From a bacterium (GTDB taxonomy: Bacteria; UBP6; JAFGXH01), in contig JAMOQH010000037.1 in assembly GCA_027064085.1 (NCBI GenBank), positions 1-17,415 of the forward strand: DNA of 17,415 nt, given 5' to 3'. Below, piece after piece: positions 1 to 17,415 of the stretch. The notes beneath the pieces are model-generated. The model saw nothing but the letters and a program-made list of their open reading frames with translations, searched no databases and had not been told where the DNA came from. Within the stretch, counting starts at the first letter, position 1. The number at the start of each line of letters is the position of its first letter. The position numbers were made by a program, and so were the translations under genes.

Positions 1-690
1 TTTGATGATATTATTATTAATGAACATATAATTAAACGTGGACTTGCTATTGCAGAAGTGTTTGATAAAACAATTGAGTGGAATAGTAGAATGGTTCTTC
101 AAGATCCAAATTATGATGAATATGAACATATGAAATCAATAGCATTATCATTATATGCATTAAATATTTTAGAAGCAGTATTTTTTAAATCATCATTTGT
201 AACTACATTTGCCTTTGCAGAAAATCATATAATGGAAAGCTCAGCAAAGGCAATAACAAAAATATCTATGGATGAAATTATGCATTATCAAATGACAGTG
301 TATATAATTAAACGTCTTAAAGAGCAACAAGAATGGACAGCAGCATTTGCAGAAATCGAAAATGAAGCAATAGCTATGTATCAACAAGCATATGAAACTG
401 ATTTAGAATGGATTGATTATTGTTATCCTAAAGATAAACATATTCAACTTCTTGGAGTAAGCAATTCAATTTTAAAACAATATGTACAATACAATATGTA
501 TAATGTAATGACAAATGTTAAATTACCAAATATTGTTAAACGTGTAAAAAATCCTTGTATATGGATAGATAAATATTCAAATTTATCAAATGTACAAGTA
601 GCAATGAAAGAAACAGATAGTGCAAATTATTTATTAGGTAAACTTGATACTGAAATAACTAGTGCTGATTACGAATCTTTTCTTTTATAA
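1..690 (+). CDS. nrdB: Ribonucleotide reductase class I, beta (small) subunit, 5'-truncated by window
   Basis: The frame is open from base 1, so only the last 229 residues are present; a GTG at 58 is internal and is not the start. The class Ia beta subunit houses the diiron-tyrosyl radical cofactor that the large subunit uses to reduce ribonucleotides. Visible signatures are AFAENH followed by MDEIMHYQ. These match the E. coli NrdB helices that supply the Glu204, Glu238 and His241 iron ligands (FAFAE... and DEALH). The tail 'SANYLLGKLDTEI' matches the conserved C-terminal 'SYLVGQIDSEV' segment that docks on the alpha subunit. The radical tyrosine region lies upstream of the window. With the MazG-like gene downstream, it points to phage remodelling of the dNTP pool. 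nrdA is probably just upstream, but this cannot be seen. The family call is secure; only completeness is unknown. Confidence 0.95.
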   Translation, partial: FDDIIINEHIIKRGLAIAEVFDKTIEWNSRMVLQDPNYDEYEHMKSIALSLYALNILEAVFFKSSFVTTFAFAENHIMESSAKAITKISMDEIMHYQMTVYIIKRLKEQQEWTAAFAEIENEAIAMYQQAYETDLEWIDYCYPKDKHIQLLGVSNSILKQYVQYNMYNVMTNVKLPNIVKRVKNPCIWIDKYSNLSNVQVAMKETDSANYLLGKLDTEITSADYESFLL

Positions 691-707
691 TTTAATAAAA
701 AAAGTAT

Positions 708-887
708 ATGATGACTGAATTTGAAATAAGAAAAAAAATAGAACGATATCGTGTATCAGATGCACCTATGCACATTAAGGACGCTGCTATAAAAAAATTA
801 GAAGCCAAACTACATACAAGTAATGAAGTAGCTCGTCAGCAATATGCTGATGCTGCTCCTGACTTGTCAGATATACAACAAGATTAA
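708..887 (+). CDS. Small hypothetical protein (59 aa)
   Basis: Open frame of 59 codons starting at tandem ATGs (708 and 711), 17 bases after the nrdB stop. The product begins MMTEFEIRKKIERY and ends SDIQQD. It is charged and looks helical, with a central 'MHIKDAAIKKLEAKL' segment, no membrane segment and no cysteine. No strong Shine-Dalgarno is visible before the ATG pair, so expression may depend on coupling to nrdB. Codon use (GAA, AAA, ATA, GAT) matches its neighbours, and the following gene starts 10 bases after its stop with a good ribosome site, so it fits the gene array. I do not recognise a family. It is too short to be certain. Confidence 0.7.
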   Translation: MMTEFEIRKKIERYRVSDAPMHIKDAAIKKLEAKLHTSNEVARQQYADAAPDLSDIQQD

Positions 888-896
888 GGAGAACAT

Positions 897-1178
897 ATGA
901 AATTTAAAAAATTCAAAAAAACAATCAGAAAATTAGAAGCAGAATTACCAGATGATGTAAACAATAAATTATCAAAAAAAGTTTTAAAAGAAGTTCCAAA
1001 AAAAGATAGAAATATGTTTATTGAAGCAACTTTTGATATAGTTAATTTAATAAAATTTATATATGGAAATGAAGAAAATGAAGACAATATTAATATTGAC
1101 GATGAATTACAAGATGAATTTTTAAGCTTAAGCATAGAGGTATGCCCAGAATGTAAAAAAATGACTATTAAGAAATAG
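897..1178 (+). CDS. Hypothetical acidic protein with C-terminal CxxC
   Basis: 93 codons. The start is fixed by an AGGAGA ribosome site 6 bases before the ATG, overlapping the end of the previous ORF. The N-terminal third is very basic (MKFKKFKKTIRK). The middle (about 40-60) is a hydrophobic-alternating stretch (MFIEATFDIVNLIKFIYG). Then comes a strongly acidic run (NEENEDNINIDDELQDE), and the protein ends CPECKKMTIKK. The single CxxC pair is half of a possible zinc knuckle and might bind metal only as a dimer. Function unknown. A long antisense frame (884-1135) is judged a shadow because this strand has the ribosome site and the neighbours' orientation. Confidence 0.75.
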   Translation: MKFKKFKKTIRKLEAELPDDVNNKLSKKVLKEVPKKDRNMFIEATFDIVNLIKFIYGNEENEDNINIDDELQDEFLSLSIEVCPECKKMTIKK

Positions 1179-1235
1179 TTTATTTTTATTAAATAAAAAG
1201 AAATAAAAAATGAAAATTTTAGAAGAAGAAATATA

Positions 1236-1582: not shown

Positions 1583-1583
1583 A

Positions 1584-1793: not shown

Positions 1794-1806
1794 ATAAAGG
1801 TAAAAT

Positions 1807-2196: not shown

Positions 2197-2198
2197 CT

Positions 2199-2230
2199 TA
2201 ATAATTTTCTTAAAAAAACAAGAATTATTA
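2199..2230 (+). terminator. AT-rich hairpin after the MazG-like gene (possible weak terminator)
   Basis: Immediately after the stop at 2196, the strand 2199-2211 pairs with 2220-2230 (about 11 A-T/G-C pairs with a two-base bulge, loop AAAAAAAC). There is no good T-run downstream, only TATAGTATAAT, which belongs to the following promoter. It could reduce read-through from the nrdB-mazG group or process the mRNA, but such hairpins also arise by chance at this base composition. Confidence 0.35.
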
Positions 2231-2239: not shown

Positions 2240-2245
2240 AAATTT

Positions 2246-2440
2246 TAATAAGTCTTACTTTTATGTAACTTCGGGAGACTATAAAATCCGTAAGACCGCA
2301 GTTGGGCATCTGAGGAAAAAGCCAACGAAACCAAGAAGCCTACTATAACACGCCTTTAAAAATAAAGCACGAAGTTAGAGGAATTTAAAATTTTTGGGAG
2401 TAGGTCGATAAATAAAATTAAAAATTTTAAATAATTAAAC
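2246..2440 (+). ncRNA. Unrecognised structured RNA upstream of the tRNA
   Basis: This protein-free stretch is clearly richer in G and C than its surroundings and folds well by eye. Helix A: 2252-2258 with 2290-2296 (GTCTTAC/GTAAGAC), continued by 2259-2264 with 2281-2286, leaving a TCC bulge and a CTTCGG-containing tip. Helix B: 2301-2305 with 2322-2326 (GTTGG/CCAAC), loop containing CTGAGGA. Helix C: 2339-2344 with 2399-2404 (CCTACT/AGTAGG), enclosing hairpin E (2354-2358 with 2363-2367). A 13-bp pairing D joins 2383-2395 to 2420-2432 and has helix C's 3' strand in its loop, so C and D are either a pseudoknot or alternative folds. It does not match tmRNA, RNase P RNA, SRP RNA, 6S RNA, common riboswitches or a group I intron as I know them. 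The 3' end is set only by the tRNA. Confidence 0.55.
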
Positions 2441-2446
2441 ATACTC

Positions 2447-2521
2447 TGGCAGGTAGCTCAATGGTTAGAGCCAGTCGCTCATAACGACTTAATCAGAGTT
2501 CGATTCTCTGTCTGCCAACCA
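2447..2521 (+). tRNA. tRNA with CAT anticodon (Met or, more likely, lysidine-type Ile2)
   Basis: Complete cloverleaf. Acceptor TGGCAGG/TCTGCCA (one G-T pair), D-arm GCTC-AATGGTTA-GAGC, anticodon stem AGTCG/CGACT with loop CTCATAA, four-base variable loop, T-arm CAGAG-TTCGATT-CTCTG, discriminator A and an encoded CCA (2519-2521). The first pair is T-A and the anticodon stem lacks the three G-C pairs of initiators, so it is not tRNA-fMet. The 8-base D-loop is as in bacterial tRNA-Ile2, whereas elongator Met often has nine. The many ATA codons in this window would benefit from an ATA-reading tRNA, but Met cannot be excluded. It would be released by RNase P from the transcript that carries the upstream structured RNA. 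Confidence 0.93.
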
Positions 2522-2562
2522 TAAAAAAATAATCATAAAAAAAAATCAATACAAGGAGATAT

Positions 2563-2793
2563 ATGGAATTTATAATAATAGGAATAGTTACATTTTTTAA
2601 TTTAGCAATATTGTTAAAAAAATATCAAACAGAAAGATATGTTGATATGCTTTTAGATATTTTAGCTTTCATTATATTAAGTAAAATTTTTGGAGGAACA
2701 TTAGGTGGAATGATGATAGCAATGATTGGATCTATGCTACTTAGTTTATACTTATTGTTTGCAATAAAGAAATCAAATGTCAGAACAATTTAA
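2563..2793 (+). CDS. Small hydrophobic membrane protein (76 aa)
   Basis: 76 codons with a strong AAGGAG site 7 bases before the ATG. Hydrophobic segments are at about residues 2-18 (EFIIIGIVTFFNLAILL), 29-42, and 48-68 through a glycine/methionine-rich GGTLGGMMIAMIGSMLLSLYLLF stretch. The sequence between (KKYQTERYVDM) is polar and basic. It probably spans the membrane two or three times. First of four overlapping small ORFs that run to the convergent junction. Its size suits a holin-like or superinfection-type protein, but no family is recognised and no endolysin is in view. Confidence 0.75.
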   Translation: MEFIIIGIVTFFNLAILLKKYQTERYVDMLLDILAFIILSKIFGGTLGGMMIAMIGSMLLSLYLLFAIKKSNVRTI

Positions 2794-2950
2794 TACAATA
2801 AAAATATTTATTTTAATAGCTTTTACTTTAATAATATTATTTATAAGTTGGTATTTGCTTATTGCAGTAGCAGCCATTTTAGTCATATATTATATATCAA
2901 AACTATTAACAACAATCAATAATCTTACAAAGGAGGCAGAACATGAGTAA
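2777..2950 (+). CDS. Small membrane protein overlapping the previous gene (57 aa)
   Basis: 57 codons beginning MSEQFNTIKIFILIAFTLII. It starts inside the previous gene in a different frame (17-bp overlap), so translation is probably coupled. Residues 9-42 are almost continuously hydrophobic with one Trp (FISWYLLIAVAAILVIYYI), enough for two short or one long membrane helix. A polar tail follows (LTTINNLTKEAEHE). Its last codons carry the AAGGAGG site of the next ORF. Confidence 0.65.
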   Translation: MSEQFNTIKIFILIAFTLIILFISWYLLIAVAAILVIYYISKLLTTINNLTKEAEHE

Positions 2951-3053
2951 TAAATTATTACAAGAAGATTTAAACAAATTAAACAAAAAACTTGATGAAT
3001 CAATAAAAAAAGCTGATATTAAAATAGAAAAAATTGTTAAAACGAGCAAATAA
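2943..3053 (+). CDS. Small helical coiled-coil-like protein (36 aa)
   Basis: 36 codons starting MSNKLLQEDLNKLNKKLD. A near-perfect AAGGAGG lies 7 bases upstream, inside the preceding gene, which it overlaps by 8 bp. Leucine and isoleucine recur at 3-4 residue spacing (LLQEDLNKLNKKLDESIKKADIKIEKI), predicting one amphipathic coiled-coil helix with no membrane segment. The strength of the ribosome site is the main reason for accepting so short an ORF. Function unknown. Confidence 0.6.
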   Translation: MSNKLLQEDLNKLNKKLDESIKKADIKIEKIVKTSK

Positions 3054-3157
3054 TGAAAAAAGATGAAGAATTTTTTAAAAACATTGAAACATTAGGTATG
3101 AAATTTTTTCATAAATTAGGAATCTTAATCGACAACCTAACTAAGAAATATTCTTAG
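3053..3157 (+). CDS. Small basic protein (34 aa), last rightward gene
   Basis: 34 codons, MKKDEEFFKNIETLGMKFF through DNLTKKYS. Its ATG overlaps the previous stop by one base (TAATG). Its stop at 3155-3157 overlaps by 4 bp the stop of the leftward 1333-residue gene, and its last nine codons form the left arm of the hairpin at 3131-3166. Amphipathic helix likely. Small size makes this tentative; the coupled start and matching codon style support it. Confidence 0.5.
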   Translation: MKKDEEFFKNIETLGMKFFHKLGILIDNLTKKYS

Positions 3158-3166
3158 ATAGGTGTC
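3131..3166. terminator. Strong hairpin at the convergent gene junction, candidate bidirectional terminator
   Basis: The 36 bases form a near-perfect inverted repeat: GAC (3131-3133), bulged A, ACCTA (3135-3139), A-A mismatch, CTAAGAA (3141-3147), loop ATA, TTCTTAG (3151-3157), TAGGT (3159-3163), GTC (3164-3166). This gives 15 base pairs. It covers both overlapping stop codons and reads as a hairpin in either transcript. There is no T-run on either side, so it is not a classic intrinsic terminator. It may terminate phage transcription differently, block exonucleases at both mRNA ends, or limit antisense read-through. Confidence 0.55.
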
Positions 3167-6100
3167 ACGATATCATCAGGAGTTAAATCATCTATAATTT
3201 GAAACATTGATGGTGTGGCTATATTATTCATAAAACCATGGGTTGCAACATCATATGGACTTCTATACATTAAACCAAAATCTTTAGTAAATGCAAATGA
3301 ATCAGTAGGATTTGGAGCATCAAGAAATAATCCCACTGCCATTATGGAGAGCGGATCTTCTTGCATTCTAGTTACTAAGTTTTTATTAGCTCCTAGAGTG
3401 TATTGCATGAACCATTCTAATCCATTAACTTCTAATGATTGCAATAATGGTGGTAAATTTCTATTATAATTTACAAAGGCTTCTGTAACTATTTTTATAG
3501 CTTGTTTTTCTGACATGTTTTGTTCTTCAATTAAAAATCTAAACAACTCTGCTCTAGCAACAAAATCACTATATATCATAGCTTCATGCAAGAAATCAAA
3601 CATTTTTGTTCCTTCTAACATATAAATAGTAGATAAACCATCTTTAATTATTTGTGGAGTCTTATCAATTATTTTTTTAACAGTATCGCTTTGTTCTGCT
3701 ATTTTTTCTAATTTAGAAGCAGCTAATAAATCCTTATCAGAAACATCACTCATAATTGACGTGAATAATCCTGCTTCAAACAAAGGATGAACTGATGAAT
3801 CCTTCATAAGCGTTTTTAAAACTTTTATACGCTTAATAGTTTTTTCTTTTTCTTTTTTATCTAATTTATTTATTTTTATTAATAAATTTAATTTATCTAA
3901 TTCAGACTTTCTATTTCGATAAGATTTAGTTTCTTTTAACATATGCAACTGACCAGCTGCAGTATGCCAAGGAGTTTGTCCATATACAGAAGACCAATTT
4001 AAATTTGATAAAACATTATTTTTAAATACACTAGGAGTTCTTATAACAATATCCATTTTTTCTAAACTTACAACATCTTTCCAGATAGTACTAGCTATTT
4101 CTAGCCCTGTACGTATAGTTTTTGTTATTTTGTTAGTATCTAATATTTTTTCTACTGTTTTGCCTGTAAAAGGTATATTTAAATTAAGAATACTAGGAAC
4201 TCTATTTCCTACATACATTGAAGCGATATCTCTTCGTACTGCAATATATCTTTCTCCTTTTTTCTTTTTAAAAATTTGTTTTTTTATTGAAAATGGAAGA
4301 TTATTATATAATTCTTTTGAACAATTTTCTTCAGTTTGACCATCAGTTTTTGCGTCAGGACCAATTTCTATATATCCACTATTGAATTTATCTTTTCGTT
4401 TATAATTTTTAGCATCTTTTAACATAACTGCATATACTTTTGCATTTATTTTAGCAGATTTCTTTTTTTCATCAATTTCAGCAATCATTTTACCAAGAAG
4501 AATTGGAGCCTTATTATCTTGTAAAGTATTTTTAGCATATTCATCATTATCAAAACTTACTCCATATGTAGGTTTTCCTTCCCAATTAGTAACACGAATA
4601 TAACCATCAATATTTGGTTCAACAACATTATTCATCTGTCTTTCTATTTCTTTTTCTAACTTTGTTTCCAATACTGAATTATATGCTTCTTCATAATAAT
4701 TACCTAAGTTCTTACGTAGTGTAATAATATTATGCAATCTTTTACTATCATTAATTTTAGCAAAAGCTTGTTTCTTAAAGGTATTAGTATTTTTGTTTTT
4801 ATTTACATAATATGCTATACCTTCAACTGCTGTTAATCCTGCTTTTTTATATCCATTTTCTTTCATTTCTTTTTCTACATCTTTAGTATCAAATCCAATA
4901 CGAACATCAACACCTTCTTCATCTGTATCTTTTATATCACCTTTAAAAGGATAGACTCTGGATCCACTTGTTTCAGCATATCTAACTGCTTCTCTTACAT
5001 ATGTATTATGTATAGCCATTACTGACTCTAAGCCCTCTTTATCCATAGAAGCTATCTTTGTCTTATCTTTTGCATTAAAATGCGTAAGAGCCTTTAAAGT
5101 GGACAATCTATTAACTGCTTGCATTGTTCTTTTAAATTGTTTAGCATTCATTCTTAAAGTTTTAAATTTTTCAGGAAGATTATGCATGCTAACTATTTCA
5201 TAAGCTGATTTAGATACAGAGGAACCACTTTTACCTGTAGCCAATTTATATCCTAATCCATTTGCTTGACTTTTATAGTAATTTCTTATTTTTTCACTTT
5301 TTATTTCTTTATCTATATTTTTATATTCAGCTTTTATTGCTTCTTCTAAAGTATTATCATCTGTAAGCATTTTTATTATTTCATCAGAACTATAACTCAT
5401 TAACAAAGATTGCAAATCAGTTCTAATAACAACCTTAGTAAGAAGCAATTGTTCTTTTCTGCTTTTTAAATTATCACTAAAAGATGATTTGATTGTGGAT
5501 CCAACATTAACTATTAAATCTTGTCTGTCTCCATCAAGTTTTTGAGTAATAAGAGATAACTTTTCAAGTTTAGTTGTTAATTCATCATCTTTCTTAATAT
5601 AATTAATGAGTCTATTAAAAGTGTTTTCTGGAGCAATTAACCAACCAAGATTCATAAAACTATCTAAACTTTTACTTAGTTCTGTTAATGTAGCATTTAT
5701 AATTCTTTTCTTTTCTGTACTTTGAAAAGGATTTATTATATTTAATATATTTTTGGTTACTTCAACTGTTTGTCCAAAAACATTATCTTTGTTAGCTAAA
5801 ATAAACTTATCAGTATATTTATCTATTGAGCTTAAAACACCAGCTATTGCTTTAACAGCAGTTCTATTTGCTATTTTTTTACCTTCACTTAGTTTACGTA
5901 CTGACTTTCTATATAAAGTTTCATTTTTAATTGTAAGACTATTGTGCTCCCATAATTTACTAACATATTCTTGAAGAGCTTCATTCCCATCTAAGCCATC
6001 TTGTGTAACAATATTTTTAATTGAATCAATTAACTTATATACATAATGAATAAGATGTGAAAAAAAACTACTATTTTTAGGTAAACCTTTAATTTCAGAC

Positions 6101-7155
6101 TTCATAGAAATAGTTTTTAACACTTCAATAACAGTTTCTTCTGTGGATCCTAAGGCTATAAATTCAGCTAATGCATTATTTCCAAGAAACATTTGATCAT
6201 ATAATTTTTTAGCATGTTCTTTAGTTGTATATTTAGATAATTTTTCTATAGTTATTTCTTCAGAAGCTTTTTCATATAAATTACTTAATTTAGTTATCGT
6301 ATCAGATACTTTTCCTTTTTTATACTGTCTTGCAAATTCTACAGATAAATGTATCAATTCATGCATATATACTTTTTGTGCAGCATTTTCACTATTGGCA
6401 GTTGTATTTGTTAGATCCAATTTTAAAAAAGATTTATCTTTTCCTATTTTTGCAACACCAGCATTTTTTTTAGCATTATTTGCTATATATACTTTAAACT
6501 CATTAAATATAGGAGTTGTACTATCTGTAATTTTACCTAATAAATCTCTGAGATATTTAGTATGTTCATTATCTATTCCATCATTTTCAACTAATGTTTC
6601 AAAGATATCCTTAATTTTATTTGGATCATTCCAAACTTCATCTGTAATTTCTTCATAATTACCTCTACTTAGTGTATTTAATTTTCCATCAGAATAAAAA
6701 ACTATTTCAGATTCAACTGGTAAAACTATGTCATATTCAAGTTCTTTTTTTTGTGCTTTTACATAATTATTAATATTCTCCATAAAAGGAATAGAAACTG
6801 TAGCTCCTGTTTTTGTTTTATTGCTTATACTATTATTTTTTTTGAATGTATATTTTTCTCCATTATCTAATGTAATTATAGTAGAGTCTTCATTTGATTT
6901 TAAATCAACAACAGTATGTATGGTTGGTTCATTGGATCCATCATGATAAACTTCAACCATTCCTTTATTATTATGAATTAAAGCTGCATATTTAAAACTA
7001 TCTTCTTCATTTTTATTTTGAAGCATATCTCTCAATATTATACTTCTTGTTAATTCATCATTAACAATTTCTTCACGCATCCCAGCTTCCATATACTTTT
7101 GTTTTATATCATTAAAAGTATTTATCTTATTTTTTATATTACATTTTGTACTCAT
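3154..7155 (-). CDS. Large internal virion protein with zincin (HExxH) domain, probable ejection protein
   Basis: 1333 residues. ATG directly follows the previous TAA (TAAATG) with AAGGA 7 bases upstream. Residues 265-269 are HELIH, and A-E331-F-I-A lies 62 residues on. This HExxH plus later glutamate layout is that of a gluzincin-type metallopeptidase, with the first half of the protein built round it. A long middle part is lysine-rich. Residues ~1035-1330 contain IVIRTPSVFKNNVLSN and GLEWFMQYTLGANKN, resembling in style the C-terminal region of large phage polyvalent or internal virion proteins (LPD38-like); this is from memory. Size, lack of a signal peptide or membrane helix, and late-cluster position beside the virion polymerase suggest a capsid-interior protein injected with DNA. 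A protease role in the virion or host is inferred. It overlaps the last rightward gene by 4 bp. Confidence 0.85.
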   Translation of the reverse strand: MSTKCNIKNKINTFNDIKQKYMEAGMREEIVNDELTRSIILRDMLQNKNEEDSFKYAALIHNNKGMVEVYHDGSNEPTIHTVVDLKSNEDSTIITLDNGEKYTFKKNNSISNKTKTGATVSIPFMENINNYVKAQKKELEYDIVLPVESEIVFYSDGKLNTLSRGNYEEITDEVWNDPNKIKDIFETLVENDGIDNEHTKYLRDLLGKITDSTTPIFNEFKVYIANNAKKNAGVAKIGKDKSFLKLDLTNTTANSENAAQKVYMHELIHLSVEFARQYKKGKVSDTITKLSNLYEKASEEITIEKLSKYTTKEHAKKLYDQMFLGNNALAEFIALGSTEETVIEVLKTISMKSEIKGLPKNSSFFSHLIHYVYKLIDSIKNIVTQDGLDGNEALQEYVSKLWEHNSLTIKNETLYRKSVRKLSEGKKIANRTAVKAIAGVLSSIDKYTDKFILANKDNVFGQTVEVTKNILNIINPFQSTEKKRIINATLTELSKSLDSFMNLGWLIAPENTFNRLINYIKKDDELTTKLEKLSLITQKLDGDRQDLIVNVGSTIKSSFSDNLKSRKEQLLLTKVVIRTDLQSLLMSYSSDEIIKMLTDDNTLEEAIKAEYKNIDKEIKSEKIRNYYKSQANGLGYKLATGKSGSSVSKSAYEIVSMHNLPEKFKTLRMNAKQFKRTMQAVNRLSTLKALTHFNAKDKTKIASMDKEGLESVMAIHNTYVREAVRYAETSGSRVYPFKGDIKDTDEEGVDVRIGFDTKDVEKEMKENGYKKAGLTAVEGIAYYVNKNKNTNTFKKQAFAKINDSKRLHNIITLRKNLGNYYEEAYNSVLETKLEKEIERQMNNVVEPNIDGYIRVTNWEGKPTYGVSFDNDEYAKNTLQDNKAPILLGKMIAEIDEKKKSAKINAKVYAVMLKDAKNYKRKDKFNSGYIEIGPDAKTDGQTEENCSKELYNNLPFSIKKQIFKKKKGERYIAVRRDIASMYVGNRVPSILNLNIPFTGKTVEKILDTNKITKTIRTGLEIASTIWKDVVSLEKMDIVIRTPSVFKNNVLSNLNWSSVYGQTPWHTAAGQLHMLKETKSYRNRKSELDKLNLLIKINKLDKKEKEKTIKRIKVLKTLMKDSSVHPLFEAGLFTSIMSDVSDKDLLAASKLEKIAEQSDTVKKIIDKTPQIIKDGLSTIYMLEGTKMFDFLHEAMIYSDFVARAELFRFLIEEQNMSEKQAIKIVTEAFVNYNRNLPPLLQSLEVNGLEWFMQYTLGANKNLVTRMQEDPLSIMAVGLFLDAPNPTDSFAFTKDFGLMYRSPYDVATHGFMNNIATPSMFQIIDDLTPDDIVTPI

Positions 7156-8700
7156 TTAACAATCCTTAACCATGTTTGCTATATCTTCTAATAGCATATT
7201 TGCTGTTTTTATATTTGCTTTTTCTGTGTTAGTCATAACTTTATCTAATTGTATCATTACTTCACTTGATATACTTCCTTCATTAAATTCAATATTAAAA
7301 TTTTTAAATATTTTATTTAATATATTTTTTATTATAAGATAAAATTTATTTCCTAACTTATGTCCACTATCACTTTGTATCTTATTGAGTTCAGTTAATA
7401 AAGTTTTATTGCTAATCATTTCTGCTACAAATTCATGTAAATCTTGTCTCCAATAATTATTTGCCATACTGCTGTTGTCAGTGTATTTAGTTAGAGCTTC
7501 ATTATATAATGCTTTTAATGGTTCTAACTCTTTTTCACTAGCAGAGCTTAACCAGTCGTCTATCAATCCATGAATCATTTCGTGTAATAAAGTTGCATTA
7601 AATGCTTCTTTTTTAGATAACTTTTCTGTACTTTTATTCATTGCTTCTCGTATTTTAATTAAATTAAAATAATCAGAATTTGATTTATTCATTTCAATTA
7701 ATAATTTATCTATAAACTTTAATTCATTATTTAAGTTTTTAATATAATCTTTATCTGTATCATTGCTTTCTGTTTTTTTAATTATATTTTCTATTCTTTC
7801 TTTATTTTCTGATAAAGCCTTTTCTACTCTTTCTTTAAATTTATCATTATCTTTAATTTTATTTAATCTATCCATATGATATTTAAAATCTACAACAGAA
7901 ACTACTCCATCATAATATTGACCTAAAAATGCAGATCCACTGTAAATATCTTTTAATAATTGAAAAATTGAATACGATTGATTTGCATACTCAACTTTTT
8001 TAAGTGTAATTGGAACATAAGTTTTAAGTTCTTTAAATGCAGTTTCAATTTCTTTTCTTCTTTGTTCTCTGTTCGTTCGAATTTCTTCAGCTTGTTGCAT
8101 ATCTTCATATACATTTATTGCATCTCCATGTGTTGCAGCATGAATCCAAATTCCGATTGTAACATTATTTACAATAATGTCTTGTTTTATATATCCATCA
8201 GCATATTTTGTCATCCATTCATCTATATCCCATTCACCTCGATTAAATTCACCATGAGCATTTACCCATTTTCCATTTTTATCTTTATATCTCTTAGTTC
8301 CATATTTACCATAATCAAATGTATTTTTATCTTTACCTTTTAAATTCAAATGTTCATCGGAATCAACAACTATTGATGCGTGAGCTTTTACTGCATTGCT
8401 TATATTATTAACATATATTGAATCTCCAACAGTTTTATTTATTGGTCCTTTTCCAAATTTTCCTTTTCTTGTAAAAGGAATTATTCTACCTTTTCTATTT
8501 CCATTTGATGAAACATATACTATATCGTCCTGAGTATAAGATCCAGTATTTAATGCTGTATTAGGATATAATTTAGATATCTTATTTGTGGTAGAACCCT
8601 CTACTCCATTTGCTATAGCTTGCGTTGCTATAGCAATTTTAGCTTTTTCTTTCTGAATATGTTTATTTGGGATCCCAATATTATTGGCTCTTTGTACCAA
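7156..8700 (-). CDS. Zincin-motif (HExxH) late protein, start unclear
   Basis: 514 residues if TTG at 8700 is used. HEMIH is at 373-377, then H422-E423-F-V-A-E, again an HExxH plus later glutamate layout, similar in order to the downstream 1333-residue protein. The region between is helical and charged, and the N-terminal part includes a 'KYGTKRYKDKNGKW' tract and WIHAATHGDA. The start is a problem: there is no ATG or GTG in frame, and no convincing ribosome site before TTG. The frame stays open upstream for 24 codons (a lysine-rich stretch then 'HPLTKDKRNE') to the TAA of the 73-residue ORF, which is in the same frame. The 72-base gap has two runs of eight T. It may be the C-terminal part of a ~612-residue protein made by read-through, or of a gene broken by mutation. 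Its stop abuts the next ATG. Confidence 0.75.
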   Translation of the reverse strand: MVQRANNIGIPNKHIQKEKAKIAIATQAIANGVEGSTTNKISKLYPNTALNTGSYTQDDIVYVSSNGNRKGRIIPFTRKGKFGKGPINKTVGDSIYVNNISNAVKAHASIVVDSDEHLNLKGKDKNTFDYGKYGTKRYKDKNGKWVNAHGEFNRGEWDIDEWMTKYADGYIKQDIIVNNVTIGIWIHAATHGDAINVYEDMQQAEEIRTNREQRRKEIETAFKELKTYVPITLKKVEYANQSYSIFQLLKDIYSGSAFLGQYYDGVVSVVDFKYHMDRLNKIKDNDKFKERVEKALSENKERIENIIKKTESNDTDKDYIKNLNNELKFIDKLLIEMNKSNSDYFNLIKIREAMNKSTEKLSKKEAFNATLLHEMIHGLIDDWLSSASEKELEPLKALYNEALTKYTDNSSMANNYWRQDLHEFVAEMISNKTLLTELNKIQSDSGHKLGNKFYLIIKNILNKIFKNFNIEFNEGSISSEVMIQLDKVMTNTEKANIKTANMLLEDIANMVKDC

Positions 8701-8772
8701 CTCATTTCTTTTATCTTTTGTTAATGGATGAGCTATTTTTTTTGTTTTATTTTTTTTCTTTGAATTACTATT

Positions 8773-8994: not shown

Positions 8995-11900
8995 TTAACA
9001 TTCCTCTAATATTTTATTTATTATAGCATCTAATTTGCTTATAAATTTTTCATTGTTTTTAAAATTATCATTTTTAACAATATCATTAAGTGTAATTTCT
9101 TTATAGTCTTTACTATTAAATGATGTTCCTTTTGGACCTGCAAAGTTTTGTATAATTAAATTATGAGAGTATAATTCACTTCTTGTTTCTTCTACATTAT
9201 TCATAATATTTTTTAAATTATATAAAGTTAAACTAACTCTATCTTCTTCATTTATATTTTCTATATCATTTTCATTTGTAGCCTCCAGTGTTTCTACAAA
9301 AGATTGAACTATGCTATGAACCAATGAATATTCTCTTCCAACTTCATACATTCCTTTATTCAATCCATAAACTCTATTTTCAAAATCATTACCAAGAACC
9401 AATGCATCATGAACTCCTAAAGCTCCACCCTTGATTAATTGTTTACTTATTATAGTACCATCAATCCAATGCATAGGAAGAACAGCTCCTGCAGCATGTG
9501 CTTCTTGAAGTTCTCTTTTCATAGCATTTACTGTCGCATTTGCATAATTTTTACCATCTTTCTTAACTATTTTAATTCCAGTTTTTACTATTCTTTTGTT
9601 ATCTTCACCAACTAATTTTTGATTACTAATTGAGATCCCATCTTCTCGGCTACTGCTTTGAGGTCCCCTTATTAATGGAAATTTATCTTTTAAATTATGA
9701 ATTATTAAATTAGTTTCTTTCTCAGATAATGGTCTATTATATTCTTTTTCTAATTTATCGACTTGTCGTTTAAAATCTTTTTCAAAAGAAGCAAACATTA
9801 TTTTTGTAGCTTCAATCAAATTAACATTTAATTTAACTAGTGGTTCAAATGTAGCATTCATAATATTTTCTATTTCTCTACCATAAGTACCAATTATTAA
9901 TTCTTCTATTTTTTGAATAGCAGATTTAAAATCACCTTGCACTTTTACTGCATCAATTGATTTTTCTTTTAAATCTTTTTGTAATTGAACCAATTCATTC
10001 TTACTGTGGATCCCAAGATATTTAATTATATCACTATCGTATGCATATGTATCGTTTAGAATTCCTTGCATGATAGGAATAGCTAATTCTCTTGCAGTAT
10101 TACGTTTAATATTTAATATTGATGCACCATAGTTAAATATCATAAATGGATATTTAAATAAATTTCTAGCTGCACTAGTTACAAGCCCATCAACAATAAT
10201 AGTAGGTATAGCTTCTTTTTTTAATTTTTTATCTTCAGCAACTTCAGTGTTCCAATCATTTACAAGTGAATGCATTGCTTTTTTTGATTGTGAATTAAGC
10301 TCTACTTCTTTACCTTTTTTATCTATTTTTGTTGGAGTTAGTAATCCAAATTTATTATCACTATCTTCTAGCGGAATTTCACCAATACCCTTACCTAGAG
10401 TTTTATATGAATCAATTATTAATCCATCTTCTATAACTTGACCCATTTCCATATTGTCACGATTTAATTCATCATTTTCTTTAAAAACGCCTACTTTTGC
10501 TAACCAATCATACAAAATTTCCTTTGCTAATATTGGAGCTTGCATTAATTTATTTGCAAATCCAGAAGTAATTGAATCGTATTCAGAAACCATAGTTGCA
10601 TTGAATGTGGATCCAGATGTTTGTTGATATGCTTTTAATGCTTTAATAGCTTGAAATAAATGTCCAGGATGTTCATTCTCTAATTCTATTCCATTTATTT
10701 TTATTTTATTGTTATTTTTAAATCCATTGATAATATCAGATATATTTGCGTCTTTAATTGCATCAAACATTTTATTTACTGTTTTATCACTAAGTTTATC
10801 TGTTCCAATTCCAAAACCTTGTAATAGCCCTTGTTTAAAATACATAAATTCATCATTTGTTTTGTCCCATTTAGTATTCTGTGCTGCTGTTGGAACAACT
10901 AACCATCTGTGTAATAGATTTTTACTTTGAGGATTAATATCTCCACTATCTAAGTTGTAACGACCACCTACAGTAAATACCCAATTAAAAAATATACTAT
11001 TTTGGATCTCTTTGTTGTCAATGCGTTTTTTAAGTGCTATTAATTGATCATATTCAGCTTCTAAGCCTCGATTTACACCTTCCTGTTTATCAATGTCTTC
11101 TTCTAGATAAACAGGGTTTGTTGATTCTTTCATAGCATCTAAATCTTTCCAACCAATACTTTCTAAAAATTTAATTCTACCTTCTTCTCCGCTACCATAT
11201 ATTTCTTCCATAACATCTAAGGAATCAGTAAGTGCATATTCTTCTTTTATGAGAGATTTCAGAGTTTCAATTGCTTGTTTAGGAGCACTAAATTTACTAC
11301 CTTTGATTCGACTAAGAATATCATCATCTATACTGAAAGGTCTAATTTTATAAGTTTCTTGTTTAGGTAAAATATCAATAATTGCATCTAGATTATTAAT
11401 CATTTCTCCAAAATGTGCATATGTTTCAATTTTAGATTTTTTACCTTTTATTGTAGGTACAGATTCATTTGTTTTTATATGTTTATGTTCATCGTTAATA
11501 GCATTCCAATCTGTTGAAGATATGTGTTGGGTATTTATATCTTCAATTAATCCGCTTCCTTGAAGAAATGCTATTGCCATTAATCCAAGATTTGATTTCA
11601 TTTTACCAATCATGGCTTCGGGGATCCCATCTTTTGCCTTTATTCCAAATGCATTCCACGCATTAGAACCAATAGAAAAAGCTACATGTCTACGCAATGA
11701 ACCAGCATGTCTAAGAACTTGTTTATCCTTAGCTGTAACTTCATATGTAGTAGCATATCCTTTTATTTTTGCAATATCTTCATCAGTATTAAATAATGTT
11801 TTAGCTCCATCTGTTCTAGCCCAATCCCAAGCAGTAAGAATTATTATTCTAGCAATATCTCTATTTATTGATCCATTTTGATTAAACAATAATGCACTCA

Positions 11901-14900
11901 TTGGACTATCAAATAAAGTAAGATGATTTTTACCTGGTTCTATCTTAATACTTTTTTCCAATATATCAACAGCATGTTCTAATTCTTTTTCTATCTTTTC
12001 TGAATCTTTAATATCAGAATTTTCTAATAATTCTTTTATTGATAAATTTCCAAGAATTGTTGGAGTAAAATCAATTAAGTTATTTAAATTTAATGGTTGC
12101 TCATATGATCCCTCTACATTTCCATTCCATGAATCTTTTGTTGTAGTTAGTCCATTTGATAATGCAGTTTTGACTAATGAAGTTCCTTTTATAGAATCAA
12201 TTATATTCAATATTTTGTCTTGTAACACTTTTTTGTATTTTTTATTTTCTGCTGAAAGAGTATTTAACTTATCGTAAAGTTTATCTATTTTTTCTAATTT
12301 TTCTATTACTTTATCAGATATAGTTTTATCGGATATAGACGATTTAAGTTTTTCAAGTTGCCTGTTAAGTTTGATTTCATTTTTTTCAATATGTGATTCT
12401 GTTTTCTTTATGTATTTTTCTAACTCTTCAATTTCTTTACTTAACTCACTTTTTTTATTAAGTTTTAACATTCTAAATAATAAAGCTTTTGTATGTTTCA
12501 TCAGTGTTATTATTTTGTTGTCAGTTTCTTTCTGCATACCTTTTGTAAAGATTTGCAATGCTTTAACAGGACTATTAACTAATCCTTCTGCTTCGGCTTC
12601 ATGTTCTAGTCTTTTTAACTCTTTGAATAAAGCATTTTTTGCTTCATCATATGTCATGCCAACCTCTTTAAAATGTTTAGCTGCACTATCTAATGATTTT
12701 TCTATACTTTTTCTTGTTTTTTCTTGTATATTTTTTAGTTTTGACAATTCCTCTTTTGCTTTGTTTAGAGCTTTCTTTCCTATAGCTATACTTTTTTTAG
12801 TATTAAGCATTCTATCTACAAGATTGTCATCTTTTACTAGATTTTTTAATTCATGTATATTTTCTTTTATTTCAGTAGTTTTATTTTCTTTTTCTTTTTC
12901 GCTTTCAACGAGAATCTTGTTATATTCTTTTTGAGTATCTTCTAAATTAGATATACTTTTATTTAAATCTTCTTTTGCTTTTTCTGCTTTAAATTTAGTA
13001 TTTTTATCTTCTTTCGGAAGCTCTCCATCTAGATTGCTTTCTATATTTCGAGTATCATTTTTTATATTTTCTACTGTATCTTGAGTTGTATATGCTTTTC
13101 GTTTTCTATATTTTCTCCCTATTGGTTCTTCGCCAATTGGTTTACCTAGATTGTTTTTAATACGTTCTAAAGTTTTACTATCTAATTTATTTTCTTTTAT
13201 AGATTCTTTCATATCAGAAATTTTATTAGATAATTCATTATATTCTTCAGTATCTTTATCTAAATTTTTCAACTGCTCTTCATATTCTCTAATGCGTTTG
13301 CGAATATTTTTTTCATCAAAATTCTTTTGAATAGATACCCATCGTTTTGTACTGGCAACACCTTTGTTTAATAAATTTTGAACTCTCTCAATTCCTTTTT
13401 CATAATTTTTTATTGAATCAACTATTCTTTGTTTTAAAAGTTTAGTCGTTATTTTATTCTTTTCATTTTCAGGAAGATCTTCTATTTCTTTTAATTTTGT
13501 TCTAGATTCGGACAATAATTCTTCATAACTTTTTAAATCATCTTGAGCAGTAACAACAAAACCTCTATCTAATTTACGAGTATTTTTATTAGCAGATAGA
13601 ATATTATCAATATGATCCACAGATTCTTGCATAGATTCCATAATGGCTAATGTATTAGATTTGCTATTTTCTTCAATTCCTAGTTCTTTACGAACACTAT
13701 CAGGAAGAGCTATATCTTTAATAACATCACTAGCTTTCATTTTTCGTTTACTATACTGTGGTCTAAATTCAACTGTATCAAGTGTTTTTATAAGCTCAGG
13801 AATATCTTTAGCTTTAGCTGTACTAACAACTTCTTCAAGTATGTTTTTAAGTTCTTCATATTTAGCTGCATACTTATTTAATTTAGTTTCCTGTTCGATA
13901 CCTTTATTTTTAATTTTATTGAGCTCTACTGTAGCTGTATCAATATCTCCATTCTCTAATGCTTTTCTATATTTAGTATATGTTGGAATAATTCCATCTT
14001 CATCATAATATAATTTATATTGAAAATCGTTTGCCTCTTTACTAACTTTTTTCATATCTCTAAGTATAAATTTGTCAAATGCACTATTTAATGTTTTTTG
14101 TAAATTTACATTATTTATTCCATACTTTTTAGCAAGTTTATTAATTAATCTAGCACTGAGTCCTTCGGTGTGAGTATCAGTACGTCCTATTTCAGATTCA
14201 ATATTGTTAACAATGTTTTTATCTTCCGGTTCTGTATTTGTTTTAGTACTATTTTGATTTTGATTTTCATCCACAGTGCTATCATTTTCATTATTATTAT
14301 TTGTATTAGTAGTTGTATCAACATCTATTTCCTGAGGCTTACTAGGTCCTTTTATTTCAATTTTGTCAAGTGGAGCCATTTTGATTTCACCAATTTTTTT
14401 TGAAACTGCTTTTTCTACAGTACTTCCAATTTCTTGAGGTTTGTCAGGCATTTTTATTTCAATTTTGCCAAGTGGAGCCATTTCAATAACTGTTGTTGGA
14501 GTTTTTGTTTTTAACTCATAATGTTCTTTTCCATTAGAATCAGATACTTTTTTTACATCATTTTTACTTACTTTTATAACGATTGGATCTCCAAGTGCTC
14601 CAATATTCATTTGTTTTGGATTAGAATCAGATCCACCATTACTTATAGAATTTCTAGGTCTAGCAATAAAATCATCTCCAGATTGAATTATTTCTACTTT
14701 TCCAATCGATATTTGACTTAAAGCATTATTTATACTATCTAAATCTGATTCAATAGAACTTTTAATATCTTTTTCTACAAGGTTATTTTTAACTTTTTCA
14801 ATTATAGTTTCTGGCATACCTTTTAATTTTTTATCTATTTCAGTACTTATTTCACTTGGATCATATATTTCTCCAAGACTTTCTGATACAGCATCAGTAA

Positions 14901-17283
14901 GACTATCTACCACATGTGTACTAAAATCATCAACTCTTTTTTTGTGTTTATTTAAACGTTCAAAAGCAGCATCTTTGGTTTCTTGATCCATAGTTTCATC
15001 TAGCTCTATTGCTTTTGATTCCTTATCTAATGTTTTAGAAAAACTATCAATTAACTCTGTAGCTTTATTTATATCTATATCACTTTGTGTGCCATTATAA
15101 AATCTAGCAGCTTCATCACTAAATTCTTTATGAGTTTCTTCTACATCTATAGGAGTATCATTAATTGATTCAGTATTTTCATCTTCATGATTTTTATCGC
15201 TATTAGTTTCAGTAAATGTATTTGTAATAACATTAGATCCAGCACTTGGACCTGCCATATGAATACCACTTGCTGCTCCGAAAGCTGCACCTTGTGCTGC
15301 ATCATGAAATGCTTTAGTTAAAGCTTCTGTTGCATTACCATCTTTATATGTATTATTAAAAGCTTGGATCCCACTTTGGATATATTCTGCAGGATATTCA
15401 GCAATACCACCTTCTACCATTTTTGCTGCACCAGAAATTACTCCTGTAAGCATTTTCTGTGCTCTTGTTTTACCTGCTTTTTTAATTAATGCAGAAAAGC
15501 CTTCTTTTGTTCCCATTAATGCAGTTTTATCAGCCCACAAATCTATTTTTGCTCCTATAGCATTTGCAGCAAAACCTAATAATGCATGCTGTAGAGATGC
15601 TCTTTCACCGTGTTTTTCGTAGTAGTCATCCATATCTTGTTCATTAGTTACAGCTCCAAGATGTAGTATGTTTGCATTTTTTGCAACGAATGCATTGAAT
15701 TTATTTTTAATTGGAATTTTACTTAATGCTCTGTCACTAAGTTGAATAGTTTTTTCATACATAGCTTTCTTGGTTGGATCCAATAAAGTCATGCCTTTTT
15801 TCACAGCATCTTCAGTTGTTATTTTTCCAGCAGCAATTAGCTTGTCAGTTTTGGCAGCTTTGCTTAACATTTCTTTTGCAACATCTTTTTTTGCATTGTA
15901 TTCAAGTGCTTTTAAAGTTCCTTTGCCTGCCATTTTGATTGCTGCTTTTTCAGGAAGACCAACTAAGTTTCCAAGCATATAGCCTAGTGATTTGAAGGTC
16001 ATTTCTGGGCTGGATAAGCCTGTCTTAAACATATTGTATGCTTCAGGTAAATTGACTTTACCATATGAGCTTGGATCTGACCAAGTAACATCTTTAAAAG
16101 CTTTCTTTTGATGTTCTTCCATTTTCTTAACATCATCAACTGTAGCAGCAACAAAATCTTCACCAGCTATAGCATTTTCTATGGTATCTAGTTTTTCTTT
16201 TGTTAAAAATTGAAATCTATCTGCTAATTCATTTGCATCTTTCTCATTGAAATCATAAAGTCTTTTTGCTGATTCATAGATAGCTCTAGTCTCTAAATCA
16301 TTAGCTAATTTTGCAGTATCGCCAATAACTCTAGCAACTCCACCAGCGAATCCTCTAGCATTTCTAGCAACTCCATCTGCAAATTGTCCTAGCAGAGGCT
16401 CACCTTCGTATTTTGTATTATCATGAACCACACCTATTGCTTTTGGTCTAGGCGCATCAGTATCATTTAAAAACTTAGGAGCTTGTGGAGTAACCACTTG
16501 TTCTGGTAAATTTGTATTGCTAGAATCTATATTCCACATAGGAGCATTTTGTGTTGTATATTCACTAGCTCCTTTGCCATAAACATTTGGTTTCACATTT
16601 CTTACATAGTCAGCAACACTAGCACCACCTGCTCTATTTGCAATTTGTCCTTTATTTGAGTGTGTTAGAAATTCTAATCTTGAAGCTTCATCATACGGAA
16701 GAGCTATATCTAAATAAGGTTCTTTTGTTGGATCCACTCCTTTTTTCCCTGGAGCCCAACCATAGTTTTTATTTGTAGTCAATCCTTCTTTTGCAGCAAG
16801 ACCAGGTGTATATCTCTCTTTAAAGCCTACGCCTGCTAAACCTAACTTCATATTGCCATCTTTACTAGGAGCAACATATACATGTTGAGTAATGCCACTG
16901 AAAGGGGTTTTATTCCATTCTCCTTCAGCATCTCGCCTCATTTGATATGGACCTATTTCTTTATCATCATAATATACTCTATCGTTTGCACTAGAACCAA
17001 GCATTTCTTGTAACTGTTCTGGAGTATAACTATTTAATGAATCTTTAGTTATTCCATATTCATTTGTATATATATCCATATTATTATATAGATCCAATGT
17101 AGCATCTGGATTGAGTCTATTTATTTTTTGTTGTTTCTTTTGTTGGAGATGATTGATTTTATTTGTAGAAGTAGGTACAGAACCAATAGTATCAACAGCA
17201 GTATTGTAGGTGTCTGTTAATTGGGAAAATTGATCCAGTACATTATTAGTATTTTCAGTGAAGTCATCAGGATAGTTAGCCAT
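8995..17283 (-). CDS. Virion-associated single-subunit RNA polymerase, N4 gp50-like
   Basis: 2762 residues; ATG preceded by AAAGGT at 8-9 bases. The polymerase occupies about 1740-2762, the size of N4 mini-vRNAP. Visible motifs are T2104-V-G-G-R2108 (T/DxxGR), motif A with D2236 (YDSITSG), motif B R2373-x3-K2377-x7-Y2385-G, and motif C H2625-D2626. R to K and K to Y spacings equal those of T7 RNAP. A to C is 390 residues against about 275 in T7, consistent with the N4 branch. D2236 and D2626 would bind the catalytic metals. Upstream are a globular N-terminal region (~1-240), Gly/Ala-rich amphipathic segments (~290-320, ~595-680), an Asn/Asp/Glu linker (~990-1030) and long coiled coil (~1080-1740). 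In N4 this protein is packaged, injected and transcribes early genes from hairpin promoters. Only ~136 residues follow motif C, so N4's large C-terminal domain is missing. Confidence 0.93.
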   Translation of the reverse strand: MANYPDDFTENTNNVLDQFSQLTDTYNTAVDTIGSVPTSTNKINHLQQKKQQKINRLNPDATLDLYNNMDIYTNEYGITKDSLNSYTPEQLQEMLGSSANDRVYYDDKEIGPYQMRRDAEGEWNKTPFSGITQHVYVAPSKDGNMKLGLAGVGFKERYTPGLAAKEGLTTNKNYGWAPGKKGVDPTKEPYLDIALPYDEASRLEFLTHSNKGQIANRAGGASVADYVRNVKPNVYGKGASEYTTQNAPMWNIDSSNTNLPEQVVTPQAPKFLNDTDAPRPKAIGVVHDNTKYEGEPLLGQFADGVARNARGFAGGVARVIGDTAKLANDLETRAIYESAKRLYDFNEKDANELADRFQFLTKEKLDTIENAIAGEDFVAATVDDVKKMEEHQKKAFKDVTWSDPSSYGKVNLPEAYNMFKTGLSSPEMTFKSLGYMLGNLVGLPEKAAIKMAGKGTLKALEYNAKKDVAKEMLSKAAKTDKLIAAGKITTEDAVKKGMTLLDPTKKAMYEKTIQLSDRALSKIPIKNKFNAFVAKNANILHLGAVTNEQDMDDYYEKHGERASLQHALLGFAANAIGAKIDLWADKTALMGTKEGFSALIKKAGKTRAQKMLTGVISGAAKMVEGGIAEYPAEYIQSGIQAFNNTYKDGNATEALTKAFHDAAQGAAFGAASGIHMAGPSAGSNVITNTFTETNSDKNHEDENTESINDTPIDVEETHKEFSDEAARFYNGTQSDIDINKATELIDSFSKTLDKESKAIELDETMDQETKDAAFERLNKHKKRVDDFSTHVVDSLTDAVSESLGEIYDPSEISTEIDKKLKGMPETIIEKVKNNLVEKDIKSSIESDLDSINNALSQISIGKVEIIQSGDDFIARPRNSISNGGSDSNPKQMNIGALGDPIVIKVSKNDVKKVSDSNGKEHYELKTKTPTTVIEMAPLGKIEIKMPDKPQEIGSTVEKAVSKKIGEIKMAPLDKIEIKGPSKPQEIDVDTTTNTNNNNENDSTVDENQNQNSTKTNTEPEDKNIVNNIESEIGRTDTHTEGLSARLINKLAKKYGINNVNLQKTLNSAFDKFILRDMKKVSKEANDFQYKLYYDEDGIIPTYTKYRKALENGDIDTATVELNKIKNKGIEQETKLNKYAAKYEELKNILEEVVSTAKAKDIPELIKTLDTVEFRPQYSKRKMKASDVIKDIALPDSVRKELGIEENSKSNTLAIMESMQESVDHIDNILSANKNTRKLDRGFVVTAQDDLKSYEELLSESRTKLKEIEDLPENEKNKITTKLLKQRIVDSIKNYEKGIERVQNLLNKGVASTKRWVSIQKNFDEKNIRKRIREYEEQLKNLDKDTEEYNELSNKISDMKESIKENKLDSKTLERIKNNLGKPIGEEPIGRKYRKRKAYTTQDTVENIKNDTRNIESNLDGELPKEDKNTKFKAEKAKEDLNKSISNLEDTQKEYNKILVESEKEKENKTTEIKENIHELKNLVKDDNLVDRMLNTKKSIAIGKKALNKAKEELSKLKNIQEKTRKSIEKSLDSAAKHFKEVGMTYDEAKNALFKELKRLEHEAEAEGLVNSPVKALQIFTKGMQKETDNKIITLMKHTKALLFRMLKLNKKSELSKEIEELEKYIKKTESHIEKNEIKLNRQLEKLKSSISDKTISDKVIEKLEKIDKLYDKLNTLSAENKKYKKVLQDKILNIIDSIKGTSLVKTALSNGLTTTKDSWNGNVEGSYEQPLNLNNLIDFTPTILGNLSIKELLENSDIKDSEKIEKELEHAVDILEKSIKIEPGKNHLTLFDSPMSALLFNQNGSINRDIARIIILTAWDWARTDGAKTLFNTDEDIAKIKGYATTYEVTAKDKQVLRHAGSLRRHVAFSIGSNAWNAFGIKAKDGIPEAMIGKMKSNLGLMAIAFLQGSGLIEDINTQHISSTDWNAINDEHKHIKTNESVPTIKGKKSKIETYAHFGEMINNLDAIIDILPKQETYKIRPFSIDDDILSRIKGSKFSAPKQAIETLKSLIKEEYALTDSLDVMEEIYGSGEEGRIKFLESIGWKDLDAMKESTNPVYLEEDIDKQEGVNRGLEAEYDQLIALKKRIDNKEIQNSIFFNWVFTVGGRYNLDSGDINPQSKNLLHRWLVVPTAAQNTKWDKTNDEFMYFKQGLLQGFGIGTDKLSDKTVNKMFDAIKDANISDIINGFKNNNKIKINGIELENEHPGHLFQAIKALKAYQQTSGSTFNATMVSEYDSITSGFANKLMQAPILAKEILYDWLAKVGVFKENDELNRDNMEMGQVIEDGLIIDSYKTLGKGIGEIPLEDSDNKFGLLTPTKIDKKGKEVELNSQSKKAMHSLVNDWNTEVAEDKKLKKEAIPTIIVDGLVTSAARNLFKYPFMIFNYGASILNIKRNTARELAIPIMQGILNDTYAYDSDIIKYLGIHSKNELVQLQKDLKEKSIDAVKVQGDFKSAIQKIEELIIGTYGREIENIMNATFEPLVKLNVNLIEATKIMFASFEKDFKRQVDKLEKEYNRPLSEKETNLIIHNLKDKFPLIRGPQSSSREDGISISNQKLVGEDNKRIVKTGIKIVKKDGKNYANATVNAMKRELQEAHAAGAVLPMHWIDGTIISKQLIKGGALGVHDALVLGNDFENRVYGLNKGMYEVGREYSLVHSIVQSFVETLEATNENDIENINEEDRVSLTLYNLKNIMNNVEETRSELYSHNLIIQNFAGPKGTSFNSKDYKEITLNDIVKNDNFKNNEKFISKLDAIINKILEEC
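14328..14483 (-). repeat. Two-copy 54-bp direct repeat inside the virion RNA polymerase gene
   Basis: Copies at 14328-14381 and 14430-14483, offset 102 bp, are similar but not identical. They encode two 18-residue units of the pattern MAPL-x-KIEIK-x-P-x-KPQEI at about residues 935-952 and 969-986, just before the acidic Asn-rich linker. The frame is kept and most differences are single bases, as in an old tandem duplication. Possible short linear binding motif or flexible spacer; function unknown. Confidence 0.85.
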
Positions 17284-17284
17284 T

Positions 17285-17328
17285 GCGTACCTTTAATATT
17301 ATGTTATGACATTATAGCATAGGTACGC
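17285..17328 (-). promoter_or_regulatory. Inverted repeat covering the polymerase gene's -10 box and ribosome site
   Basis: An 8-bp perfect inverted repeat (AGGTACGC/GCGTACCT, 17285-17292 and 17321-17328) is unusually G+C-rich for the region. The interval adds inner pairs: on the minus strand TAT-A-ATGT, loop CATA, ACAT-A-ATA. The arm nearest the gene contains the AAGGT ribosome site. The other arm lies just upstream of the -10 box, outside the transcript that starts here. It could be a protein operator, or an mRNA hairpin that hides the start only in read-through transcripts. Confidence 0.6.
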
Positions 17329-17340
17329 TTTCACTTGGAA
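17311..17340 (-). promoter_or_regulatory. Extended -10 promoter for the virion RNA polymerase gene
   Basis: On the minus strand TGCTATAAT gives a perfect extended -10 (TG at 17319-17318, TATAAT at 17316-17311). A weak -35 candidate, TTCCAA, lies 18 bases upstream (17340-17335). Transcription would begin near 17304, leaving a leader of about 20 nt to the ATG at 17283. Host sigma70-dependent late transcription is known for N4, so a host-type promoter here is expected. Confidence 0.65.
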
Positions 17341-17343
17341 TAT

Positions 17344-17415
17344 CTATTTATTGTATAAATATTTATATAAATCTTTATATGGAAGTGATTCAAAATCTTT
17401 TTCAACACGATTATG
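17344..17415 (-). CDS. 3' end of an upstream leftward gene (partial)
   Basis: From the right window edge the minus strand reads 23 sense codons without interruption, HNRVEKDFESLPYKDLYKYLYNK, then TAG at 17346-17344. Composition (Lys, Tyr, Glu, A/T-ending codons) matches the neighbours, and the stop lies 60 bases before the polymerase start, just upstream of its promoter. Nothing can be said of function from this tail. Confidence 0.6.
   Translation of the reverse strand, partial: HNRVEKDFESLPYKDLYKYLYNK

Follow-up and report, generated by a model that had tools for sequence, protein, structure and literature searches.

Introduction

Why should the tetramer GATC, in a stretch of phage DNA, occur almost only with a G before it or a C after it, and why should the palindrome GGATCC be so abundant there? 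The question is raised by contig C37 of a 3.65-Mb bacterial bin, 17,415 bases in length and referred to in what follows as the window, for which a first-pass annotation made from the letters alone had proposed selection by a restriction or methylation system that spares GGATC. Descriptions of words over-represented in phage genomes are fewer than those of avoided ones, and an excess may point to a function. The kind of phenomenon is known, with Chi, HIP1 and primase sites as examples of words selected genome-wide; what appears to be new is the instance described here, along with the way it extends through a phage family and switches with the primase. A literature search, by which subscription papers were mostly not covered, brought up neither a hexamer reported as over-represented in N4-like phages nor a known N4 primase site.

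The window is phage DNA. It encodes the small subunit of a ribonucleotide reductase (phrog_86), a MazG-like protein and, split, a giant virion RNA polymerase (vRNAP) of the N4 type, together with a tRNA-Met. It is the reductase gene (58-690, + strand, as open in the window; phrog_86, PF00268), with a 98% identical copy in the relative described below, that identifies the contig as phage. The vRNAP, a mark of the Schitoviridae, is found with phrog_2206 at 4.6e-92 and 7.6e-60, but in separate open reading frames (ORFs). The N4 vRNAP is a single protein of ~3500 aa, whereas on the - strand of the window (3154-17283) there are three ORFs of 2762, 514 and 1333 aa, comprising an N-terminal part (8995-17283, profile positions 129-1913), an ORF from the ORF list to which the profile search gives no family (7156-8700) and a C-terminal part (3154-7155, profile positions 2268-3379).

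A comparison is provided by the viral contig IMGVR_UViG_3300026484_000002, G003 in what follows, which is 91 kb long and possibly incomplete. By blastn the window is 97% identical to G003 over positions 1-2208 and 95% identical over 15173-17415, with the middle diverged beyond blastn alignment. G003 is placed among the N4-like phages by several genes, those for its SU10-type portal and N4-type primase included; the family marks are N4-like proteins and a phrog_2135 primase, along with a portal at 34% identity to N4 and 56% to AD45, all encoded by genes outside the window. In G003 the vRNAP is likewise distributed over several consecutive ORFs, and this single genome also carries two ThyX-family thymidylate synthase genes and genes for a Hint-domain protein, an LRAT-domain protein and a ParB-like protein.

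Results and Discussion

The bias in the window

The by-eye counts of the first-pass annotation are exact: GATC occurs 39 times in the window, in 35 cases preceded by G or followed by C, and there are 13 GGATCC and four WGATCW, the last being TGATCA at 1628-1633, 6194-6199 and 11045-11050 and AGATCT at 13475-13480. Its coordinates are good to within a few bases, with the exception of a GGATCC placed at ~4972 that in fact starts at 4960. A codon-preserving shuffle was carried out 1000 times over 15.1 kb of window genes. These genes contain 11 GGATCC where 1.0 is expected, a number reached in 0 of the 1000 shuffles, and 32 GATC with G before or C after against 18.0, while WGATCW is reduced to 3 from an expected 10.4 and the GATC total is 35 against 31.2. 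Among 512 strand-merged pentamers GGATC is the most enriched in the window (43 against 18.8). On the strength of the shuffles the bias is real and independent of codon usage and amino acid sequence. It is, moreover, present over the whole of the 91-kb relative; the two checks that had been named as able to overturn it, a codon shuffle and a survey of the rest of the genome (here through G003), have thus both been run, and the observation survived each.

The unit of enrichment is one-sided

The bases that flank GGATC in the window are far from random, with T preceding it in 37 of 48 cases and A in 1 of 48, so placing AGGATC at 1 copy against 7.8 expected. The GATC core is itself dispensable: TGGTTC is enriched (17 against 6.7) and AGGTTC depleted. 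Given the single-strand excesses of GGATC and GATCC, 14.4 copies of GGATCC are predicted and 13 are found, and with no surplus beyond its halves, as would be seen for a HIP-type palindrome, GGATCC needs no cause other than the one-sided word. The unit of enrichment is the non-palindromic TGGWTC and not GGATCC, which is ruled out as a functional unit since two overlapping one-sided sites account for it.

The sites themselves make this clear. Overlap of TGGATC copies from opposite strands gives rise to GGATCC and to TGGATCCA, two overlapping TGGATC, which is found at 1343-1350, 1391-1398, 4959-4966, 5496-5503, 6933-6940, 10608-10615, 15775-15782 and 16729-16736 (GGATCC at 1344-1349, 1392-1397, 4960-4965, 5497-5502, 6934-6939, 10609-10614, 15776-15781 and 16730-16735, respectively). 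GGATCC is entered by a + strand TGGATC at 6144-6149, 10007-10012 and 15365-15370 (GGATCC at 6145-6150, 10008-10013 and 15366-15371), and lies outside TGGATC context at 8670-8675 and 11622-11627. Further copies of TGGATC occur at 2727-2732, 6622-6627, 11003-11008, 14584-14589, 14857-14862 and 16072-16077 on the + strand and at 103-108, 2095-2100, 6414-6419, 7934-7939, 8540-8545, 11870-11875, 13614-13619, 14630-14635, 14985-14990, 15236-15241, 17091-17096 and 17232-17237 on the - strand. TGGTTC is located at 92-97, 4615-4620, 6925-6930, 7519-7524, 9841-9846, 11935-11940 and 13123-13128 (+) and at 3409-3414, 5222-5227, 9318-9323, 9396-9401, 9987-9992, 11666-11671, 11699-11704, 16425-16430, 16994-16999 and 17180-17185 (-).

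Strand and codon phase make no difference to the excess of TGGWTC, which extends to intergenic DNA, and G003 allows these properties to be quantified. Relative to its codon shuffle there are 165 TGGATC against 60 and 100 TGGTTC against 52, with GGGATC at 14 against 6.8, AGGATC at 12 against 38 and TTGATC at 26 against 54. The two strands carry 149 and 145 motif sites and are enriched alike (134 against 50.0 on the + strand, 131 against 59.4 on the - strand), and the site density is 3.19 per kb in intergenic and 3.22 per kb in coding DNA. Of the 18 window sites in the stretches that align (97% and 95% identity), G003 preserves 15, and the middle of the window that cannot be aligned shows the same word bias. 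One region of G003, 4.67 kb at 74.8-79.5 kb (L066:14797-19470), is devoid of TGGWTC on both strands, against a mean spacing of 346 bp; it is possibly recently acquired DNA.

Might a bias in repair or mutation create such a word without selection? There is precedent in the HIP-type GATC octamers, including GGGATCCC, which are over-represented in some cyanobacteria and for which biased mismatch repair has been proposed (PMC4390886); very short patch repair would be a process of related kind. As here, the cyanobacterial case is one of a genome-wide excess of a GATC-containing word in which the eye is drawn by a palindrome (PMC4390886), but in HIP1 the palindrome is the unit and is matched by orphan methyltransferases, whereas the present word is one-sided and does not require GATC, and the search of G003 described below found no methyltransferase. 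A single mutational channel was rejected for G003, where the deficits are spread and none of the neighboring words shows a loss that would match the excess. Mismatch-repair and methyltransferase genes are absent among the scanned G003 ORFs, and the motif recurs across very different hosts and G+C contents. We therefore consider an origin in repair or mutation to be very improbable.

A word widespread in the Schitoviridae

The word is conspicuous in the textbook phage N4 and also in phages of many hosts. In coliphage N4, whose whole genome contains 1 GATC, TGGTTC is the most enriched hexamer, with 212 copies against 67 expected (z 17.6, both strands), and the other forms are in excess as well (TGGCTC 63 against 31, TGGGTC 63 against 29). 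Erwinia S6, G7C, JWAlpha, JA-1, SP-058, DSS3phi2, Presley, LIT1 and TEMp-D2 contain TGGNTC, TTGGYT or TGGYTT at 1.9-3.5x. In the Alteromonas phages AD45-P1, PT11-V19 and R22Y words with TAG are favored instead, as illustrated by CTAGTT in AD45 (142 against 48), although TAGNT enrichment among phages with the AD45/PT11-type primase is modest and is found also in some phages with an N4-type primase such as JA-1. PT11-V19 has in addition an unrelated excess of CCCGGG, 14 against ~0.9 under the codon null.

These genomes also bear on the possibility that codon or codon-pair usage is at work. Most sites are indeed genic, and other hexamers are enriched too when GC-rich phages are sampled over 20 kb. 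Against this, the excess is alike in every frame, on either strand and between genes, the nulls preserve codons throughout, and the T4 and lambda controls show an excess of neither the TGG nor the TAG word. For the strong cases a codon artefact is refuted, and as a general account it is hardly tenable.

The word changes with the primase

In a tree the primases of Schitoviridae phages form two clades, the N4 type and the AD45/PT11 type (A- and B-type in what follows), and the favored word differs between them, TGGNT(C/T) for the first and TAGNT for the second. Six further A-type phages were picked solely by a tblastn match to the N4-type primase, prior to any inspection of their words, and five of the six show an excess of TGGYTY, 1.5-2.1x, while in B-type phages there is none (0.71-1.15). 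The TGGYTY score separates 18 phages with an N4-type primase from 12 others with p 6e-6, a value uncorrected for kinship. There are three exceptions, VBP47, pYD6-A and Vibrio 1.025.O, that have an N4-type primase and lack the motif.

The most direct contrast comes from G003 and a second genome, G004. Their shared genes are clearly related (ribonucleotide reductase 84-86%, MazG-like protein 87%, capsid 68%, portal 56%), whereas the primases are only 28% identical over 160 aa and the motifs are different. The G003 portal, capsid, helicase and RusA resolvase score with the lineage of AD45, G010 and G004; its primase scores with N4-type phages (92-123 bits as opposed to 39-47), as does Sak4, encoded beside it. 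The primase tree agrees, placing G003 on the N4-type side with support 100/100, albeit on a long branch. When viral contigs were searched for primases closer to those of G003 and G004, nothing beyond the two contigs themselves was returned. These gene-by-gene affinities indicate that the motif travelled with the primase cassette, independently of reductase, helicase and structural genes, in what is a single case of recombination with Sak4 travelling alongside the primase. Across two clades with two types of word, and in one recombinant, G003, the motif follows the primase, or else the neighboring Sak4 gene, three N4-type exceptions notwithstanding; what we observe is an enrichment at the level of DNA that extends over most of the family and is associated with primase type. 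The primase gene of the window phage lies outside the window contig and is probably that of G003, to judge from flanks of 95-97% identity.

Two other readers of the word deserve consideration at this point. One is a Chi-like site that controls recombination or an exonuclease; its reader would be a host nuclease or the Sak4 and exonuclease set beside the primase, and phages would gain it for protection or recombination of their DNA. The affinity of the G003 Sak4 for N4-type phages is in keeping with such a role, and, as for Chi sites, the word is over-represented, non-palindromic and distributed genome-wide over both strands. Chi is host-specific, however, and the same word is enriched in phages of E. 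coli, Pseudomonas, Rhizobium, Vibrio and Achromobacter; a site read by the host is unlikely in view of how different these hosts are. Nor is there the enrichment in a host chromosome that Chi would lead one to expect, with TGGTTC at 249 against 251 expected in 727 kb of a bin that may, however, not be the host. Sequence specificity is not a known property of Sak4 proteins, which counts further against this role. A Chi-like function is unlikely on this evidence, if still worth bearing in mind. The second is some other sequence-specific protein of the family, with a function in packaging, the nucleoid or transcription, that selects the word. Here it is relevant that the vRNAP and portal are common to the family and that the primase as reader is itself deduced, but the G003 portal, capsid and helicase belong to the lineage that lacks the motif, and we judge such a protein a decidedly unlikely source.

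Avoidance of GATC is a separate layer

The excess of TGGNTC does not explain everything about GATC. In G003 the tetramer is under-used outside the motif (AGGATC 0.31x, TTGATC 0.49x, TCGATC 0.26x, WGATCW 0.62x), and in the bacterial bin it is at 0.33x of expectation. The first-pass annotation had suggested an examination of host restriction-modification genes: the bin carries a Dam-family GATC methyltransferase gene whose best solved relative is DpnM, the DpnII methyltransferase, as would fit avoidance of a GATC restriction system. On bin contig C47 (L039:5756-9293) the DpnM-like gene is followed by a 194-aa ORF that matches no family, then by genes for a DUF6996/DUF6997 protein and another methyltransferase, together likely a GATC restriction-modification locus. 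Binning suggests that the bin is the host of the window phage, and if so ordinary avoidance of GATC suffices for this layer; restriction is the likely cause of the shortage of GATC outside the motif. Phages under GATC restriction avoid the tetramer in the same way, and it is nearly absent in N4, S6, G7C, JA-1 and SP-058, but such avoidance accounts for the missing WGATCW only and not for the excess of TGGWTC.

The two layers are separable. GATC is at 0.19x in G004 without an excess of TGGNTC, and Rhizobium phage RHEph22 has 33 TGGATC against 14 without avoiding GATC. Imitation of the host was ruled out, the bin being poor in GATC without an excess of TGGNTC. In G006, a 15.3-kb phage contig, there are 0 GATC against 98 expected (codon null, both strands) and 61 TGG[CGT]TC against 25, or 2.4x.

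What, then, of a methyltransferase or other base-modifying enzyme of phage or host that marks GGATC or TGGNTC, such that unmarked GATC is cut and only the marked contexts remain? The depletion of GATC outside the motif, and a GATC-poor bin with a DpnM-like gene, are what such an enzyme would leave behind, and this part of the restriction-methylation proposal stands. The part that does not is a GGATC-sparing or GATC-masking methyltransferase as source of the excess. Masking would confine the excess to words that contain GATC, yet TGGTTC is enriched, also in phages nearly free of GATC (1 copy in N4, 0 in G006), and protection predicts that GGATC is tolerated, at codon expectation, where a two- to threefold excess above it is seen. 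The methyltransferase gene whose presence in the phage had been suspected was not found in G003-G005 in searches with PF01555 and PF02086, or in a Pfam scan of ~80 ORFs, most of those of the possibly incomplete G003 contig, that left out the vRNAP region, many short ORFs and those truncated at a piece border. In light of these results modification as the origin of the excess is quite improbable. Methyltransferases are found elsewhere in the bin. Contig C42 (3.3 kb; L038:1-3334) has four tandem N6/N4 DNA methyltransferase genes and a G+C content above that of the bin; these were rejected as modifying genes of the phage itself, as their composition is different, CGATC contexts are present and no link to the phage is shown. 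The plasmid-like contig C119 (L040:931-3405) carries an MvaI/BcnI-family restriction enzyme beside an N6/N4 methyltransferase.

A probable role for the primase

The explanation that we favor combines two selections. In the first, Schitoviridae would maintain a short non-palindromic word in excess on the two strands because primer synthesis by the phage's own primase would begin at this template sequence, a word-dense genome being copied more efficiently on the lagging strand; for the window phage the preferred forms of the primase word would be TGGATC and TGGTTC. In the second, GATC outside this word would be moderately avoided, as under a host GATC restriction system. Word excess and GATC avoidance together give the pattern noted at the outset. 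We put the chances of this two-part explanation at about even. Within it, we predict that the N4 gp43-type primase itself reads the word, and motif density would be selected for priming of the lagging strand.

Precedent is available in phage T7, whose gp4 primase starts at (G/T)2GTC (PMC12839067). Like TGGNTC, the T7 recognition sites are short, G/T-rich, non-palindromic and C-ending, and they too are in excess on both strands, with TGGTC at 1.50x in T7 and T3 (ranks 6 and 11 of 512 pentamers). The precedent is a weak one, in that neither GTGTC nor TTGTC shows a clear enrichment and scores just as high are reached by other pentamers; the T7 excess is far weaker than that of TGGNTC, and recognition is proven for T7 only. 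In N4 and G003 there is no strand bias of the motif, the strands being equal, where lagging-strand selection would give an asymmetry if replication ran from one origin.

Concluding Remarks

A GATC-centered palindrome in excess need not signal restriction or methylation, and the present case, in which GGATCC arises from overlap of one-sided sites, should serve as a caution. Our broader proposal is that genomes of this family are shaped by their own primase, with the template word stocked two- to threefold and switching upon primase exchange, and with the specificity, predicted as TGGTTC for N4, readable from sequence; we advance it tentatively, its prospects falling somewhat short of even. If the primase reading is true, the start specificity of hundreds of uncharacterized primases would be predictable from sequence alone.
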